A DNA stretch of 64,000 nt from Syntrophothermus lipocalidus DSM 12680 (GTDB lineage Bacteria > Bacillota > Syntrophomonadia > Syntrophomonadales > Syntrophothermaceae), in contig NC_014220.1 of NCBI RefSeq assembly GCF_000092405.1, positions 186,001 to 250,000 on the forward strand, in the 5' to 3' direction. The position numbers and the translations under genes are program-made. Shown in pieces: positions 33,850 through 54,285 of this stretch (positions are counted from its first letter, which is position 1; every line of letters starts with the position of its first letter). The notes under the pieces were generated by a model. The model saw nothing but the letters and a program-made list of their open reading frames with translations, had not been told where the DNA came from and did no database searches.

Positions 33850-34773
33850 TCAGGTTCCAGTTAAGAACCCCTCCTTTCTCCTCGCCTTCATCAACTTGCC
33901 GCGACTAAGGGGTAAACGTCCGGATTCGTTCAGCAACCTCACGATCTCGCGAGCCGCTTCTTCGATATTTTTGATATCTCTCCTGATATCGACGTCCTTG
34001 GCAGCCAGGGCGAACACGACCTGCAAGTATTCGGGCAGGTCAAACTGGTATCGGGCCAGGATTTCGGGTTCATCCAGAAGCGCACTTACATAGCCGAAAA
34101 AGCTTAGACAGCCTCTGTCCAAAACAGCGATTCTGTCGGCCGTGCTCAGGACCTCTTTCAGGTCGTGCGATATCATTATCGTTGTCTCGTGTCTTTCCTG
34201 CCGCTGCCTGATAATGTCGAGAATCAATTTTCGACCGGCAGCATCCAAACCTGCCATAGGCTCATCAAGTATGAGTATTTCCGGCCGAATAGCCAATATC
34301 CCGGCTATGGCTACTCGCCTGCGCATTCCGCCGCTCAGCGTTACAGGATTAACTTTGACGATGTTCTCTGGAGTCAGTCCTACTTCTCTCAAAGCTTCAT
34401 ACGTTCGCTCCTGTACTTCCGCCTCGGGCAGCCCCAGGTTCCTAGGCCCGTATGCGACCTCATCATAAACCGAGGTCTGAAAGATTTGGTGTTCTGGATA
34501 CTGAAACACCAAACCAACCTTTTTCCATAGATCGCGGCTCGTCCGTGGATCTGAAGCATCGAGCCCACAAACAATCACCGTACCTTTTACCGGCCGGATC
34601 AGCCCGTTAAGGTGCTGGGCCAGAGTCGACTTCCCGGAACCATTAGGTCCAAATATACCGAGAAACTCTCCCCGGTCTACGGAAAAACTGATGTCATTGA
34701 GAGCCTTACGCTCATAGGCCGAACCGGAAGCGTAAGTATAGGAAAGATGTCTAACTTTTACAATCTCAGACAT
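33850..34773 (-). CDS. ecfA2: ECF transporter ATPase EcfA2/CbiO
   Basis: ABC ATPase of an energy-coupling-factor transporter (307 aa): Walker A GPNGSGKST, Q-loop FQYPEHQIF, signature LSGGMRRRVAIAG, Walker B ILILDEP, H-loop ISHD. The C-terminal extension (about 230-307) is the ECF-type tail. It overlaps ecfA1 by 16 bases. Confidence 0.9.
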   Translation of the reverse strand: MSEIVKVRHLSYTYASGSAYERKALNDISFSVDRGEFLGIFGPNGSGKSTLAQHLNGLIRPVKGTVIVCGLDASDPRTSRDLWKKVGLVFQYPEHQIFQTSVYDEVAYGPRNLGLPEAEVQERTYEALREVGLTPENIVKVNPVTLSGGMRRRVAIAGILAIRPEILILDEPMAGLDAAGRKLILDIIRQRQERHETTIMISHDLKEVLSTADRIAVLDRGCLSFFGYVSALLDEPEILARYQFDLPEYLQVVFALAAKDVDIRRDIKNIEEAAREIVRLLNESGRLPLSRGKLMKARRKEGFLTGT

Positions 34774-35597
34774 ATATAACCTACCAATTCGTCAATTGAT
34801 TTAACATTCGAGGGAACAGTCAGCCCGCTTGCCTCCAACTCCCCGATTAACTGGTAGACTGCCGGACGACCGAGCTCTAGATTTCTAATTTCTTCGCTCA
34901 AGAAAACATCCCGGGGCGTTCCATCCATATATACCGACCCCTGCTCAAGCACGATCAAGCGATCAGCTTGAATCAAGTCCTCAGGGTTATGGCTGATAAA
35001 GATAACGGTAACCCCTTCCTCCTTGTTCAACACTTGGAGTTGGGCTATGAGATTTCGCCGGCTTATGGGGTCAAGCATGGATGTAGGCTCATCCAGCACC
35101 AGATACTCCGGCAGCATTGCCAGAACCGAAGCCAGAGCCACCATTTGTTTTTGCCCGCCTGATAAGAGGTGAGGCGCGTGGTACCTCTTATCTTCAAGCC
35201 CGCAAACATATAAGGCCCATTCTATCCGGCGCCTAATCTCCGGCAGCGGCAGCCCTAGATTCTCGAGCCCGAAGGCGATTTCTTCCTCAACGACCGGGCA
35301 TACCAGTTGGTTATCAGGGTTTTGAAAAAGCATCCCCACCGAACGCCTAATCTCTGTGAGATTGGCCGGCTTATCCGTACTCAGCCCGTTCACATAAACT
35401 TTTCCTTCTGTTGGCTTGATGAGTCCGTTAAGCAGCCGGGCCAGGGTCGATTTGCCCGAGCCGTTCATTCCCAAAACGCCGATATATTCGCCTTTCCTTA
35501 TGGTCAGCGAGACGTTGCGTAAAGCCGCTACACCGTCTCCCAACGGAGTTTCATACTGCTTGGTTACGTTAACCAGTTCAATCCTGGCTCCCAGCAT
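34758..35597 (-). CDS. ecfA1: ECF transporter ATPase EcfA1/CbiO
   Basis: The second ECF ATPase (279 aa): GMNGSGKST, FQNPDNQLV, LSGGQKQMVALAS, YLVLDEPTSMLDP and ISHN. The pair A1/A2 forms the heterodimeric motor for the EcfT subunit encoded 16 bp upstream. Confidence 0.9.
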   Translation of the reverse strand: MLGARIELVNVTKQYETPLGDGVAALRNVSLTIRKGEYIGVLGMNGSGKSTLARLLNGLIKPTEGKVYVNGLSTDKPANLTEIRRSVGMLFQNPDNQLVCPVVEEEIAFGLENLGLPLPEIRRRIEWALYVCGLEDKRYHAPHLLSGGQKQMVALASVLAMLPEYLVLDEPTSMLDPISRRNLIAQLQVLNKEEGVTVIFISHNPEDLIQADRLIVLEQGSVYMDGTPRDVFLSEEIRNLELGRPAVYQLIGELEASGLTVPSNVKSIDELVGYICLRL

Positions 35598-43043: not shown

Positions 43044-43777
43044 AAGCTCGGCGCCTCCTCTATCGGCATCTTGGCCAGCACTTCTTCTGCGGAAACCGGT
43101 GTCGGAACCGGTTCATCTCTGACTATCCGCCCGTCGCGAAAATAGATAACCCGCTGGCAGTGCCTAGCAATCTCCGGATCATGAGTGACAAGAACAATCG
43201 TTGCCCCCTCGCGATTCAGATCCTGAAAAACGGCCATGATCTCCTCCCCCGAACGGGTATCAAGGTTGCCTGTCGGCTCGTCGGCTAGTATGAGGCTAGG
43301 GTTGTTCACGAGGGCCCGGGCAATCGCCACCTTCTGTTTCTGGCCGCCCGACAACTCATTGGGACGATGATTGCCGCAGTCGGCCAGCCCTACCCTAGCC
43401 AGGGCCTCCTTTGCTCTGTGCCGCCGGACATCGGTCGGCACGTTGGCATAGATCATAGGAAGTTCTACATTGCGTAAGGCAGTCAACCGCGGCAGTAGGT
43501 TGAACGTTTGGAAGACGAACCCGATACGCTGGTTTCTGATTTCCGCCAGTTCTTCTTCCCTCAGAACAGAAGTTTCTAACCCATCAAGGGTGTACGAACC
43601 GCTGGTGGGACGATCGAGACAACCGAGGATGTTCATCAAGGTGGACTTCCCTGACCCTGAGGGTCCCATCACCGCGACAAACTCGTGAGCGGCTACCTGC
43701 AAGTTAACGTCCTTCAGGGCATGCACCGCTAGGCTCCCGTTTTGATAAATCTTACTCAAGTTATTTGTTTTAATCAT
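43040..43777 (-). CDS. MacB-type ABC ATPase
   Basis: A 245-aa ABC ATPase of the LolD/MacB class: [10 protein letters not shown]-loop [40 protein letters not shown] and VTHD. All catalytic residues are present. It overlaps both neighbours, so it is cotranslated. Confidence 0.93.
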
Positions 43778-48699: not shown

Positions 48700-49297
48700 A
48701 AGTCAGTGAGAATGATAAGGAATTGGGTGACCATAGCCGGAGAAAAAATGCCGTTAAACCGGAGCTCTGCCCGGGTTCCTTTCGTTTACCTCCCATCCAT
48801 TTTACCAACTGCCTGATATTGTGCGCCGCCAAAGCTAACAGGACCTGAGTATGTACCTTCGTACTACCAAACTTCGTCCGGATATTCTTTTACCGTCTTT
48901 TCCTGTTCATGATAAAATCTACCCTTTACTAAGGAGTCCAAGGAAGCATTAACTTGCATGACGGTAGCATCTACGAACACTTTTTCGCCTTGGATTAATC
49001 CTTGCTCCTGGCATACTTGGACAATGTGTCGGAAGAACTGTTCGTAAACCTCTCTTCCAAAACGAACCCGAGCTTTGGAAAGAATGCTGTGGTCAGGTGG
49101 TGTTTCGTCCAGGTCGTATCCAAGAAACCACATAAACGCTAAATTTAACCGACACTCTTCGGCAAGTTTCCTCTCGCTGATTATCCCGTACAGGTATCCG
49201 AGCAGAGCCATCTTGAAAATAACAACCGGGTCTACAGAGGGAGAACCGGTATGGCTGTAGTACGAACGGACGTAGTCGTAAATTTTTGCTGCAGGTT
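48700..49297 (-). mobile_element. Defective IS1182-type transposase with internal deletion
   Basis: From right to left: IYDYVRSYYSHTGSPSVDPV, FKMALLGYLYGIISERKLAE, PPDHSILSKARVRFG and FVDATVMQVNAS are the N-terminal half (first Asp) of an IS1182-type transposase. At ~48866 the frame jumps to KVHTQVLLALAAHNIRQLVK, its C-terminal end. The middle, with the second Asp and Glu, is deleted. The left end of the protein and the terminal repeats are not seen. Confidence 0.75.
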
Positions 49298-49425
49298 CCG
49301 CACATGCGCGGGGTGGGATTCCGCTACCGGCCGGTATGGGACCTGAGACACCCGGAAATGGTCGAGGCCTAGCCCCCTCATGACCCGGGGATTTTACGCC
49401 CGTCAGGACTCGGTCACACCGTTAC
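49288..49425 (+). pseudogene. murJ fossil, two joined pieces
   Basis: The DNA at 49288-49370 (encoding RGVGFRYRPVWDL) matches murJ around 25870-25950, and 49375-49425 (TRGFYARQDSVTPL) matches it around 26365-26415. The ~430 bp between them in murJ are deleted. This remnant of a second murJ copy is joined to the IS1182 remnant on one side and to the 3' end of tetR on the other. Confidence 0.8.
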
Positions 49426-50012
49426 GGTTTTGCCCCGCCAAAGAAAAGGGCACAAAGCCGGTTTTCGATGTCGTTCCAGTCGACAGGAGTGGGCTTGCCC
49501 AGAAAATGCAGGGCGGTTACTGCGGTCATGCCGAAAAAGGCGACGGCGAGGACTTCGGGATCTTGTCGGCGTATGGCGCCCTCTTCCATTCCCCGCAAGA
49601 AATACCCACCGATTAGGGCATAATACTCGGTCAAGAGCTCCTGGAGCCTCTGCTGGCGGTCTAGCGATCCCCAGGCTTCGGCCAGGATGACCCGGCATAC
49701 ATCCCAGTAGTCTGTGAAGAAAGCCAGGTGGACCTGGACCAGCTTTTCCAGTATGGCAGGGGTTTCTTCTTCGATTCCGGCCAGAGCTCGGTTTAGTCGT
49801 TGCTTCAGGATGGCCATCGCTTCGTCGATGAGAAAGAGGAAGATATCTTCCTTTCCCTTGAAGTAATAATAGACTGTACCTTTAGCCACGGCTGCGGCTT
49901 CGGCGATCTCGTCGACCGTGGTTTTTTCAAATCCTTTTTCGGCAAACAGGCGGGCTGCCGCTTCAAACAGCTTCTTTTTCTTTCCCGTGTCTTGGGGCGG
50001 GCTCTTGTCCAT
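49422..50012 (-). CDS. TetR-family regulator of the exporter operon
   Basis: A 196-aa TetR-type repressor: HTH in the N-terminal 60 residues (FAEKGFEKTTVDEIAEAAAV, AKGTVYYYFKGKEDIF), then a helical ligand domain. It is the last gene of the HlyD-ABC operon on the same strand and should bind the TGAC-TG-GTCA site at 54240. Confidence 0.88.
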   Translation of the reverse strand: MDKSPPQDTGKKKKLFEAAARLFAEKGFEKTTVDEIAEAAAVAKGTVYYYFKGKEDIFLFLIDEAMAILKQRLNRALAGIEEETPAILEKLVQVHLAFFTDYWDVCRVILAEAWGSLDRQQRLQELLTEYYALIGGYFLRGMEEGAIRRQDPEVLAVAFFGMTAVTALHFLGKPTPVDWNDIENRLCALFFGGAKP

Positions 50013-50044: not shown

Positions 50045-52429
50045 TCAGTCCGGTTCGTCGTACTGCTGCCACTGGACATTCCTTATCCTGCAGGTAGAGA
50101 GTACAGCCAGGCCAACGAACACCACTGCCATGATAGCCAGAACCAGGATGTCGGTCAATACCTCGTTCAAGCCTGCCGATTTCATGGTTATGGCACGGGC
50201 GGCGTGGGTCATCCAGGTGGCAGGGCATAAGTATCCGAAATACCGAACCCAGGCGGCCATGCTCTGGTGCGGCCAGGTGAATCCGGTAGCCAGAGCCATA
50301 GGCAGGTTGAAGAGGCAAATGACAGTGGTGGCCTGTACGGTGTCGCGGAAGACGCCGGAAAGGGCGTAGCCCAGGCCTACTACGGCCAGGCCAAACAGGG
50401 CCAAGGCCAGCCACAAAAGGAATATATTGCCGTGCACGGGCAGCCCCAGAAAAAGATGCGAACCGGCCAAGGCCAGGCCGCCGTTGGCCAACAGCACCAG
50501 GTAGTAGGGAATGACCTTGCCCCAGAATATCTGGGCATTGCTCAAGCCAGACATGGCAAAATGGACCCACGTGTTATCCTCTTTTTCGCGGGCAAGGGTG
50601 AGGCCTTCTCCTAAGAGGCAGGTTTGCTGGACCGCGATGACGACGAGCAGCAGGAAAAGGAAATAGGTATAGTTGTACGTGGGGTTATACCGCGACTCCG
50701 AGACGAATTGAATAGATTTGAGAACGTCTTCGGCCTGATCCGGTTCCAGGCCAGCCCCGAGCATGGTCTTGGACATCAGTTCGGCTCCTACCGAACGGTT
50801 CACCTCGGCCGCCGCTTTGCGAAGGTTGTACGCATAGATCAGGTTGCACCCGTCTATGATCACCTGAACCCGCGCCGGATCGCCTCTGGTCAGAGATTTT
50901 TCAAAGTCTTCGGGGATGACTACCGCGGCTCGAACGCGGTTTTCATCGAGAGCCCGGTCCATTTCCCGAATCGTATCGGGATAAAAAACGATGGCCATGC
51001 GGGGATGGGCTTCCAGCATGCGGACCAGCTCGCGGCTGGCGGGGCTGTGATCCCGGTCCACCACTGCCACGGGGATTTCCGTTAGAATGCCGGCACAGTA
51101 AGCCAGGCCGAACAGGGTCAAGTAGAAAGCGGTAGCAGCAAAGAGCACCATTATTATAAACTTGTCGCGGGTGATTGCCAGCCACTCCAGGTATGCTACG
51201 CTTGCTATGTTACGCAGGGATTGCACTTTAAAAACCTCCTGCTCGGAATTACAGGTTGCCGACAGAGGGCATTGAACCAGGTAACGGTCGGTTATTTTCA
51301 GGGCTAAAGCCGCCAGGACGCCACAGACCAGGCTGATGAGAGCCAGGTTGACGACATAAGGGCTGATGGCACTCCAGCCAGCTCCCTTCATGGTGATGGT
51401 TTGGAAAGCCTGAAGATACCAGGTCAGGGGCAGGCACTCCCCGATTATCCGGGCTACGGGATGCATGGCGTCCAACGGCCAGGTAAACCCCGACAGTATA
51501 AAAGAGGGCATGGCCATTACCATCGTGAACCGAACTGAGTTTATTTTAGCGGTCAAGGCTGAAACCAGGATGCCAAATAGCCCGACGGTTACCAGGAAAA
51601 CCGCGGTGGTTAAGGCCAGGAGCCAGGCCGAACCGTGTACCGGAAGGCGGTACAGGCAGGCCCCGCCCAGGAGGATGAGCCCCGCCTGTGCCAGGGCTGT
51701 CAACAGGTAAGGCAGCAGCTTACCCGCGCAGATGAGACCGTAGCCGTAGGGCAAGGCGCGGTACTGCACCCAAGTTCCCATTTCCCTTTCCCGGGAAATG
51801 GTAGTAGCCACTCCCAGGAGGTAAGTCTGCTGGAGGATGTAAAAAGCCATGCCGAAAAGGAGGAAGAAGGCGTAGTTGTAAGCCGGGTTGTAGCGGGCGG
51901 TAACAGGAAACTGCACCGCTGTGAGGATGCGTTGAACCTGCACGGTCAAAAGCCCCCGGGAAAGGAGAAGCCTGCTGCGCAGGGTGGCGGCCAGCTCGTT
52001 TATCACGTCCCCGGTGGCTGAAGTGGCGATGTTGGTGAAAACCATGTTGCTCCCATCGATGATGGTCAGGATGCGGGCAGGTTCTCCCCGCCCCGCCCGG
52101 CGGTCCAGGTTCTCGGGGATAACGACCGCCACCCGGGCTTTTTCTTCTTTGAGCCAGGATTGGGTTTGTTCATAATCGGCGGCGTAACCGACCACCTCGA
52201 GGGACGGATTGGCTTTGATGGCTTGGATTATTTCCCGGCTCATGGGACTGCGATCGAGATCCAGGATAACGGTGGGGATGTGGACAATGACCTGATCGCG
52301 GTAGACACCGCCTAAAAATATTAGCATCAAAAGAGGAACTGCGATGAAGATCACGGTCAGCGTCCGGTTACGCAGCAGGCACAAGGTTTCCGCATAGGCA
52401 ATTCCTGCCAAAGCACGCAGCCGCATCAA
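50045..52429 (-). CDS. Tandem-fused ABC-2 permease
   Basis: A 794-aa protein made of two complete ABC-2 permease units joined head to tail (about 1-390 and 405-794). Both halves have an early helix, an extracytoplasmic domain with matching words (ILDLDRSPMSRE vs VVDRDHSPASRE; VVIPENLD vs VVIPEDFE; IIDGSN vs IIDGCN), RYNPAYNY vs RYNPTYNY, and five late helices with FTWP. YhhJ/YbhR-type exporters usually encode two separate permeases; here one gene supplies the full dimer. Confidence 0.9.
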   Translation of the reverse strand: MMRLRALAGIAYAETLCLLRNRTLTVIFIAVPLLMLIFLGGVYRDQVIVHIPTVILDLDRSPMSREIIQAIKANPSLEVVGYAADYEQTQSWLKEEKARVAVVIPENLDRRAGRGEPARILTIIDGSNMVFTNIATSATGDVINELAATLRSRLLLSRGLLTVQVQRILTAVQFPVTARYNPAYNYAFFLLFGMAFYILQQTYLLGVATTISREREMGTWVQYRALPYGYGLICAGKLLPYLLTALAQAGLILLGGACLYRLPVHGSAWLLALTTAVFLVTVGLFGILVSALTAKINSVRFTMVMAMPSFILSGFTWPLDAMHPVARIIGECLPLTWYLQAFQTITMKGAGWSAISPYVVNLALISLVCGVLAALALKITDRYLVQCPLSATCNSEQEVFKVQSLRNIASVAYLEWLAITRDKFIIMVLFAATAFYLTLFGLAYCAGILTEIPVAVVDRDHSPASRELVRMLEAHPRMAIVFYPDTIREMDRALDENRVRAAVVIPEDFEKSLTRGDPARVQVIIDGCNLIYAYNLRKAAAEVNRSVGAELMSKTMLGAGLEPDQAEDVLKSIQFVSESRYNPTYNYTYFLFLLLVVIAVQQTCLLGEGLTLAREKEDNTWVHFAMSGLSNAQIFWGKVIPYYLVLLANGGLALAGSHLFLGLPVHGNIFLLWLALALFGLAVVGLGYALSGVFRDTVQATTVICLFNLPMALATGFTWPHQSMAAWVRYFGYLCPATWMTHAARAITMKSAGLNEVLTDILVLAIMAVVFVGLAVLSTCRIRNVQWQQYDEPD

Positions 52430-53151
52430 ACCCTGCCTCCCTCCTGTTCTTGCGAAGGTGCGGCCTCACGCTCACCGCTGCGGGCAAACAATTCGAAGAA
52501 CTCCTGGGGCTGGTACACGGTAAGACTCCCTTCTCGCAGATACCCGATGCGGAGACTGCAGGCACGAGCCAGGGTCCTTATTTCTTCTAGCCGGTCGGTG
52601 GCCCATATGCAGGTACTGCCTTCATCTACGCGGCGCAGAAGGGCCTCGATGATAACCTGGGCCGAGTCGGGGTCGGTACGGGCCAAGATGTCGTCCAGGA
52701 GGAGGAGCTTCGGTTCATTTATGAGGGCGCAGGCCAGGCTCACCCGCTGTTTTGCTCCCTGCGGCAGGTGCGTCACCCGGCGGTTTTCTAACGCGCCTAG
52801 ACCGAGCTCCTCCACCAGTAACGGCACCAGGCGGGCAAGATCAGACGCAGGTATTCCCTTCATCATACCGATAGCCTGCAGGTTCTCACAGGCGGTAAGG
52901 CGGGGAAAAAGGCTGGGGAACTGGGTTACCAGGCCGATCTCCCGCCGGTCACAGGTCTGGACCTTGCCCCAACGGTAGGGGAGGAGACCCGCGAGAACCG
53001 ATATTAGCGTGGTTTTGCCAGACCCGGAGTAACCGAACAGGGCGAATACCGTCCCGGGACCGGCCTCAAAATCCACTCCATTCAACACCGTTTCCCCTCT
53101 ATATGCACATGTCAATCCGGAAACCCGTACCCTAGACTCAGCACTACTCAT
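52426..53151 (-). CDS. ABC ATPase with atypical catalytic motifs
   Basis: A 241-aa ABC ATPase. Walker A GYSGSGKTT (40-48) is normal. The signature reads LPQGAKQR (129-136) instead of LSGGQ; Walker B LLLLDD (149-154) has Asp where the catalytic Glu is expected; the H-loop reads WATD (183-186) without His. It is coupled by 4-base and 8-base overlaps to the permease and HlyD genes. Slow hydrolysis or ATP-gated binding only is inferred. Confidence 0.85.
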   Translation of the reverse strand: MSSAESRVRVSGLTCAYRGETVLNGVDFEAGPGTVFALFGYSGSGKTTLISVLAGLLPYRWGKVQTCDRREIGLVTQFPSLFPRLTACENLQAIGMMKGIPASDLARLVPLLVEELGLGALENRRVTHLPQGAKQRVSLACALINEPKLLLLDDILARTDPDSAQVIIEALLRRVDEGSTCIWATDRLEEIRTLARACSLRIGYLREGSLTVYQPQEFFELFARSGEREAAPSQEQEGGRV

Positions 53152-54217
53152 CTGCCGAAAACCTCACTGTCTCGGTCATTCCCGTTTTCAATTCCAGATC
53201 CGGATTGGGGATACTTACTTTTACCTCGAAGCTGCGGATGTCCCGGTCATACTGGTCATTTACCGCCTTTTGGGTGGCGAAATCGCCGGCAGGGTTGACC
53301 CATTTGACTACGCCGCCGAACTCCCGGTTGTCAAAAGCCGCGACTTTGACCTTCGCTTTGGTCCCCGGTTTGACGCGGCCGATTCTATTTTCGCCGACGA
53401 ATACCTTGACCCATGTGTTTTTGAGGTCGGTGATGCGCAGAACCGGTGTGCCGGCACCTACGGTTTCCCCCGGTTCCATAAGGCGCAGGGTAACTATTCC
53501 GGCCAGAGTCGACTTAAGGGTAGCGTTGTTCAAGTAAACCACGGCTTCGTCGTACTTGGCTTGAGCCAAGGCTACCTGAGCCTGGGCGGCGGCTACGTCG
53601 TTTTCGCTCAAGGTCACCTGCAGTTCTCCCGACTTGGCTTTTTCTAAGGCGGCCTGCGCCTGGGCCAGTCGCGCGAGAGCGGCTTTGTATTCGGCTTCGG
53701 CCTTGTCTTTATCTTGCGCGGAAACGGCTCCGCTGGCATAAAGGTCCTGGATCCGCTTCCAGGTGGTTTCACAGATGTCGAGGTTGGCTTGCGCTTGTCT
53801 GACCGCTGCTTCGGCTTCTTGTACCTGGCTTAAGCTGACACCGCTCTGCAACCCTACAGCGTTTTGAGCCTTGATCAGCTCGACCTTGGCCGCCTCCAGA
53901 GCGGCTTTGGCCTGGGCTACTTGGGTCTTGAGCTCGTCTGTTTCCAACGTGGCCAAAACCTGACCCGGTTTTACCTCGTCTCCTTCGTCTACAGCGAAAC
54001 AGGCGATTTTACCCGGGACCTTGAAAGCTACCATCACCTCGTCCGCTTCGATATTACCGGTTACTTCCAACTCGGCGCCCCTGCTGGCCAGCAGTTTTTG
54101 CTCACGGTAATTGAGCCATCCAAAGGTCGTCAAGCTCAAAGCGAGCAATCCTACCGCTACGAGGGCGATGACGCGATAAGGGTTGTATGTACCGCGGTTT
54201 ACAGGCCTCTGGTCCAT
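53144..54217 (-). CDS. HlyD-family periplasmic adaptor protein
   Basis: A 357-aa adaptor of the YbhG/HlyD type: one anchor helix (VIALVAVGLLALSLTTFGWL), lipoyl part FAVDEGDEVKPGQVLATLETD, a long coiled hairpin (95-215) and barrel domain with VKVFVGENRIGRVKPG. First gene of the operon; TetR site immediately upstream. Confidence 0.9.
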   Translation of the reverse strand: MDQRPVNRGTYNPYRVIALVAVGLLALSLTTFGWLNYREQKLLASRGAELEVTGNIEADEVMVAFKVPGKIACFAVDEGDEVKPGQVLATLETDELKTQVAQAKAALEAAKVELIKAQNAVGLQSGVSLSQVQEAEAAVRQAQANLDICETTWKRIQDLYASGAVSAQDKDKAEAEYKAALARLAQAQAALEKAKSGELQVTLSENDVAAAQAQVALAQAKYDEAVVYLNNATLKSTLAGIVTLRLMEPGETVGAGTPVLRITDLKNTWVKVFVGENRIGRVKPGTKAKVKVAAFDNREFGGVVKWVNPAGDFATQKAVNDQYDRDIRSFEVKVSIPNPDLELKTGMTETVRFSADE

Positions 54218-54239: not shown

Positions 54240-54285
54240 ACTGACTGGTCAGTTTAATTTTAGGAAGTTTATTCCACGAAGTCAA
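54240..54285 (-). promoter_or_regulatory. Promoter and TetR operator of the exporter operon
   Basis: On the minus strand TTGACT (54285-54280), 17 bp, TAAAAT (54262-54257). The near-perfect palindrome ACTGACTGGTCAGT (54240-54253; arms of six) overlaps the transcription start region, fitting repression by the operon's own TetR. Confidence 0.75.

Follow-up and report, generated by a model that had tools for sequence, protein, structure and literature searches.

The locus described here lies in Syntrophothermus lipocalidus DSM 12680, whose genome comprises 2,405,559 bases in one contig, within a stretch of 64,000 nucleotides (positions 186,001 to 250,000 of NC_014220.1) that was analysed as a whole and is hereafter called the window. 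On its minus strand, an operon encodes, in this order, an HlyD/YbhG-like membrane fusion (adaptor) protein (53144..54217), an ABC ATPase of 241 aa (52426..53151), which is the operon's only ATPase and whose start overlaps the adaptor gene by 8 bases, an ABC-2 permease ORF of 794 aa (50045..52429), which shares 4 bases with the end of the ATPase gene and holds two YbhS/YbhR-like permease units in frame, and a TetR-family regulator recognized by a Pfam match (49422..50012). Between the regulator gene and a gene for an iron-containing alcohol dehydrogenase lies a 115-aa fragment of a DUF772 transposase (48864-49211, minus strand). Of the NCBIfam models, the adaptor passes TIGR01730 RND_mfp alone, with 144.7 bits for a cut-off of 94.9; against PRK03598 it scores 184.7 bits, under the cut-off of 393, and the regulator matches CecR weakly (22 vs 365 bits). 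Matches in the host genome to PF02321, taken as a sign of an outer-membrane partner (TolC), include the window adaptor itself, so that coiled-coil cross-matches among them are likely. The gene cluster resembles that of a drug exporter, and its predicted function is export.

Ahead of the adaptor gene, a promoter-like site TTGACT-17-TAAAAT (54257..54285, minus strand) was identified by consensus match only, and such sites number 8 in the 6.2 kb scanned vs 2.8 expected. The adaptor gene is also preceded by an imperfect palindrome, ACTGAC-CA-GTCAGT (54240..54253, minus strand), read from 54253 to 54240 as ACTGACCAGTCAGT. Since ACTGACCAGTCAGT recurs at nearly the same place in locus L031, 33 bases before the HlyD gene, it may represent a TetR operator; it was not found in L032, from the third genome of the window's taxonomic family. 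Furthermore, ACTAACTAGTTAGT-like palindromes stand ahead of the HlyD gene in L034, L191 and L193-L196, which belong to one other genus, and are likewise candidate TetR operators.

The permease had been described as fused in the original prediction, which holds for the reading frame (50045-52429) but not necessarily for the protein, as an internal AGGAGG followed by GTG at 51226 (GAGCAGGAGGTTTTTAAAGTG, 51244-51224, minus strand) allows two polypeptides. This is the site where relatives start their second permease gene, and by comparison with them the second permease of the window would be read from this GTG (50045..51226, minus strand). In relatives with a complete operon the permease is encoded by two genes, as opposed to the single frame of the window; because GAGCAGGAGGTTTTTAAAGTG retains a ribosome site and a start codon, the fusion looks like the loss of a stop codon, and two chains may still be made.

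Concerning the ATPase, its membership of the ABC superfamily is evident from the match to PF00005 (86 bits vs a cut-off of 25 in Pfam) and from the fold, for which AlphaFold2 predicted a complete nucleotide-binding domain (NBD) with a mean pLDDT of 91.7. Among the 50 structural matches listed, this fold resembles the NBD chains of EcsA, FtsE, MacB, LptB and others, with a query TM of 0.75-0.83. According to the alignment, Walker A (GYSGSGKTT, residues 40-48; 53008..53034, minus strand like all motifs that follow) and the Q-loop Gln77 (52921..52923) are intact, and Walker B Asp153 and D-loop Asp160 are retained. The protein has no LSGGQ-type signature with Ser; residues 129-136 read LPQGAKQR instead (52744..52767), with Ser replaced by Pro and the first Gly by Gln while the second Gly is kept. 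The catalytic Glu at the end of Walker B (LLLLDD, residues 149-154; 52690..52707) is replaced by Asp154, and the H-loop region (WATDRL, residues 183-188; 52588..52605) carries Asp186 in place of His. These three departures are the ones first noticed in the original prediction, and the alignment bears out each residue.

Many genomes of the phylum contain members of the clade to which the window ATPase belongs, and their operons agree in gene order and have a single ATPase. Among the 398 genomes of the phylum survey, 26 had a match to profile A2 at E <= 6.4e-81, the next matches being at 6.6e-50 or worse. Other surveys, whose genome sets overlap, covered the order (family present in 12 of 63 genomes), the class of genome G209 (33 of 113) and three further sets (7 of 22, 3 of 20 and 3 of 4). 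Of the four genomes in its taxonomic family, three contain the window's own clade and the fourth (G002) has no family member; the distribution of the family is patchy. As to its occurrence beyond the phylum, a scan of genome contigs gave, among the 80 loci listed, only L081 and L082 as clade members, and L081, a repeat of L031, was excluded from the locus counts. Profile A2 favours sequences sharing its members' residues because it was built from 14 of them; its scores leave an empty gap between the family (271.2 bits or more) and all others (170.1 bits or less). The family set comprises 61 distinct ATPases, the other 50 of the 111 family ORF rows being letter-identical copies, and excludes three matches without a locus (one from G540, two from G542). 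It was compared with 140 other ABC domain rows from 138 ORFs, including YbhF and paired NBDs, which form a non-random ABC sample because they were found by similarity to the family itself.

The genes around the ATPase were compared at 33 family loci with flanks (the window and genome stretches). ABC-2 permease genes lie beside the ATPase, an HlyD gene is present at 32 loci and a TetR-like ORF at 29, and HlyD, ATPase, PermN and PermC were all seen, by the criteria used, at 27. A contig end falls inside the operon at L041, L043, L050, L199 and L207, and every locus missing HlyD or TetR is cut by a contig end except L205, a 5-kb contig. Genome G055 contains two copies of the operon start, L043 on contig 192 and L050 on contig 191, whose ATPases are 92.9% identical, reflecting either a mixed assembly or a duplication. 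A tree was built from 36 other domains and 21 of the 61 members; in it the family forms one clade with a support of 100/100, placed apart from the YbhF NBD1 and NBD2 groups. Descent from one YbhF domain after loss of the other is not supported, as the clade lies outside both NBD groups, although it stands on a long branch of a tree whose bootstrap had yet to settle. In the literature text available to our search, no description of such an ABC ATPase family was found.

The conservation check in homologues that the original prediction had called for identified the lesions as a family trait. The signature Ser is found in none of the 61 members vs 137 of the 140 other rows, and the H-loop His in a single member vs 124 of the 135 ungapped other rows (5 have gaps); none of the 140 lacks both. 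Walker B Glu is kept in 46 members (14 have Asp, 1 has Gln) vs 139 of 140 other rows, and parsimony counts 5 changes for its replacement, at least 3 of them forced by well-supported branches. Walker A Lys, Walker B Asp, the second Gly of the signature and the Arg of its QR end are invariant (each 61/61), and the Q-loop Gln is present in 59. Because the residues for binding are invariant and catalytic ones are lost, nucleotide binding appears to be under selection, with hydrolysis slowed or dispensed with.

Relatives within the family are under purifying selection, with dN/dS of 0.10-0.42 in all 15 chosen close pairs of family ATPases, from which the window's own clade was left out as too diverged. 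Together with the family-wide conservation, these values led us to reject a pseudogene or a sequencing error. One could still suppose that the window gene itself is a dying copy in a decaying lineage, as the ATPase of its clade evolves fast (46.6-55.7% identity vs 65.0-73.7% for HlyD) and has also lost Walker B Glu. Yet its frame is intact and its genes overlap, the same lesions recur in two other genomes of its taxonomic family and in the whole clade, and dN/dS is low in other family members, so that we regard such decay as hardly credible. Across the family, HlyD is likewise better conserved than the ATPase (mean 54.2 vs 48.3%; 351 pairs, 27 loci), whereas in control operons with paired NBDs these are more conserved (61.6 and 65.9%) than HlyD (52.9%; 5 operons, 10 pairs, two of the operons, L244 and L245, being near copies). 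Such relative rates are only suggestive, because the control permeases (77.8%) are themselves more conserved than their NBDs.

The sandwich of two NBDs is built such that each site takes Walker A, Walker B and His from one domain and the signature from the other. With both lesions in one chain, a dimer containing the window ATPase therefore never has a fully canonical site: a homodimer would hold two sites of the degenerate type, and pairing with any canonical NBD would give two half-broken ones. The original prediction had spoken of a single ATPase, and a second intact partner, which would have overturned it, was sought in the window operon and at the 33 family loci. No second transporter ATPase was found beside that of the family, be it in the window operon or at the other loci among the 33, five of which have part of the operon hidden by a contig end. 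ATPase-like ORFs do occur elsewhere in six loci, kilobases off in L041, L198 and L200, whereas those in L202, L203 and L206, ORFs of 959-975 aa on the opposite strand right after the permeases, gave weak profile matches and were identified as UvrA. Elsewhere, at L251 (2799-3830, plus strand), a LytTR DNA-binding domain forms one protein with an ABC domain in which no Walker A is recognizable, and its gene directly adjoins that of a normal ABC ATPase; this fusion is a putative ABC-like transcription regulator.

A partner, or a replacement, could also be encoded elsewhere in the genome, which has 34 full-length ABC_tran matches (the window ATPase included), and three other ABC ATPases with canonical signature, Glu and His lie within the window (about 34252-34701, 35079-35522 and 43271-43717 (-)). 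However, not even an intact partner could restore a canonical site, because the window chain has neither the His for its own site nor the signature Ser for that of its partner; considering also the absence of a second transporter ATPase from all 33 operons, we judge this explanation very improbable. A homodimer, which the original prediction took as compulsory, is rather a probable arrangement: two copies would most likely pair beneath the two-part permease, and both ATP sites would therefore be of the degenerate kind.

The closest parallel is the YbhFSR-YbhG-CecR system of E. coli, which shares with the window operon the adjoining HlyD-type adaptor, ATPase, two ABC-2 permease units and TetR-family regulator. 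In YbhF (L208, 4246-5982), NBD1 has the signature LSGGM and a Ser for the H-loop His, whereas NBD2 has the signature LPLG and retains the His. Because the two lesions fall on separate domains, YbhF is predicted to form one canonical and one degenerate site. In contrast, the window ATPase unites both lesions in a single NBD of a separate clade, so that no canonical composite site can form; it also differs from YbhFSR in that its permeases share a single ORF. The available sections of the report on YbhFSR give its motifs as conserved and leave the asymmetry unmentioned (PMC7190983). The host genome itself contains a second system of this kind, L046 (genome positions 748000-762000), which like the window operon has HlyD, an ABC-2 permease, TetR and non-canonical catalytic motifs, but whose two separate ATPases carry complementary lesions (NBD1 LSGGM with His replaced by Pro, NBD2 LNLG with His) and fall in the YbhF NBD1 and NBD2 groups; one permease gene was found there. 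The paired operons L244-L248 show a milder pattern, in which NBD1 has a good signature without His, and NBD2 keeps the His; its signature (LSSG in three, LSVG and LSMG) still has the Ser but not the first Gly, a residue also missing in 30 of the 140 other rows. It is thus E. coli YbhF and L046 that show the clear split of lesions.

With respect to more distant systems, in the heterodimeric ABC exporters TmrAB and TM287/288 one site is degenerate and the other remains canonical, whereas all lesions of the window ATPase sit on one chain. The degenerate site of TmrB is likewise marked by an Asp where the catalytic Glu would stand; this residue, D500, is described as only regulatory (PMC8277102). 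In RbbA, ATPase and permease form one chain; the RbbA model NF033858 matches the window permease ORF with 236.6 bits, far under its cut-off of 1050, and also matches the window ATPase.

How such an ATPase could work is a matter of inference. In other ABC proteins, losses of His and Glu cripple hydrolysis, and the original prediction had suggested either very slow hydrolysis or another mechanism. Because the binding residues are invariant and the catalytic ones lost, and because the Asp of the degenerate TmrB site is portrayed as only regulatory, our preferred reading, to which we give about an even chance, is a switch that works by ATP binding and in which hydrolysis is slow or dispensable. 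The window ATPase would act as the sole NBD of a YbhFSR-like tripartite ABC-2 exporter under TetR control; ATP binding would close the dimer and switch the permease, and release would depend not on fast turnover but on nucleotide exchange or slow hydrolysis, so that the main role of ATP would be that of a gate or an allosteric ligand. For the window ATPase this would mean ATP binding with slow turnover, and in its clade, where Walker B Glu is lost as well, hydrolysis is probably nearly absent. Against this switch, Walker B Glu in 46 of 61 members is unexpected if hydrolysis were irrelevant everywhere, and family-specific changes at Walker A position 3 and signature position 2 could form a new working site.

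The latter points belong to its main rival, in which catalysis has been re-engineered and ATP is usefully hydrolysed with substitute residues, for example an Arg/Lys of the P-loop by the gamma-phosphate, an acidic signature residue, Ser at the His position and Walker B Glu. Hydrolysis with such an altered chemistry is possible because those 46 relatives retain the catalytic Glu. Furthermore, the substitutions recur: Ser replaces the H-loop His in 51 of the 61 members and Phe precedes this position in 53, Arg/Lys occupies Walker A position 3 in 49 and Glu/Asp signature position 2 in 46, the last two changes occurring in none of the 140 other rows. However, the Glu was lost several times within the family, and the basic P-loop residue shows no association with the acidic signature residue (38, 11, 8 and 4 members; Fisher p 0.47), so that a charge swap between P-loop and signature was rejected, widespread as both changes are. 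The window clade has neither of the two substitutes: its P-loop and signature carry Ser and Pro (Ser42 and Pro130 in the window protein), and the protein is also without Glu and His. Re-engineered catalysis is a weaker case for the window protein than for relatives that have Glu together with the Arg/Glu set, and overall we hold it to be rather unlikely.

A gradient of protons, sodium or substrate might alternatively drive the exporter, with the ATPase reduced to a structural or regulatory lid. The available text on YbhFSR reports Na+(Li+)/H+ transport, as well as an inhibition that is stronger with CCCP than with vanadate, and its authors were unable to exclude proton-coupled efflux (Feng et al. 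2020, PMC7190983). On the other hand, nucleotide binding seems to be still selected in the family, since all 61 members keep the Lys of Walker A and the Asp of Walker B. Moreover, judged by hydropathy only, no obvious ion-coupling residue was seen in the permeases of the window or in those of relatives (29 first, 31 second), and the invariant or nearly invariant charged residues sit at the ends of hydrophobic segments. We therefore consider a purely gradient-driven exporter improbable; the same null result weighs against the ATP-binding switch, as the energy source of a hydrolysis-free exporter was sought among these permease residues by hydropathy and none was found.

Judged from its sequence and that of its relatives, the window system is a real, conserved and unusual variant of the YbhFSR-like ABC-2 exporters. 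What the present analysis adds to the original prediction is that the lesions are conserved family-wide and that one chain unites what YbhF splits between two domains, a comparison that also brought out the asymmetry of YbhF itself. The general view of ABC transporters is that one or more of their composite ATP sites must be canonical. A lone NBD that offers neither His in cis nor Ser in trans makes the need for hydrolysis in ABC exporters, and the residues used for it, directly testable, and the natural variants at the catalytic position (Glu, Asp and Gln) allow a comparison. As a broader and distinctly tentative idea, to which we assign a low probability, a clade of ABC exporters of the Bacillota, probably with many members in anaerobes, may have given up fast ATP hydrolysis, with both composite sites degenerate, ATP gating the permease as a bound ligand, and an ion or substrate gradient paying for net export. 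If true, export paid for by a gradient would spare ATP in energy-poor syntrophs.
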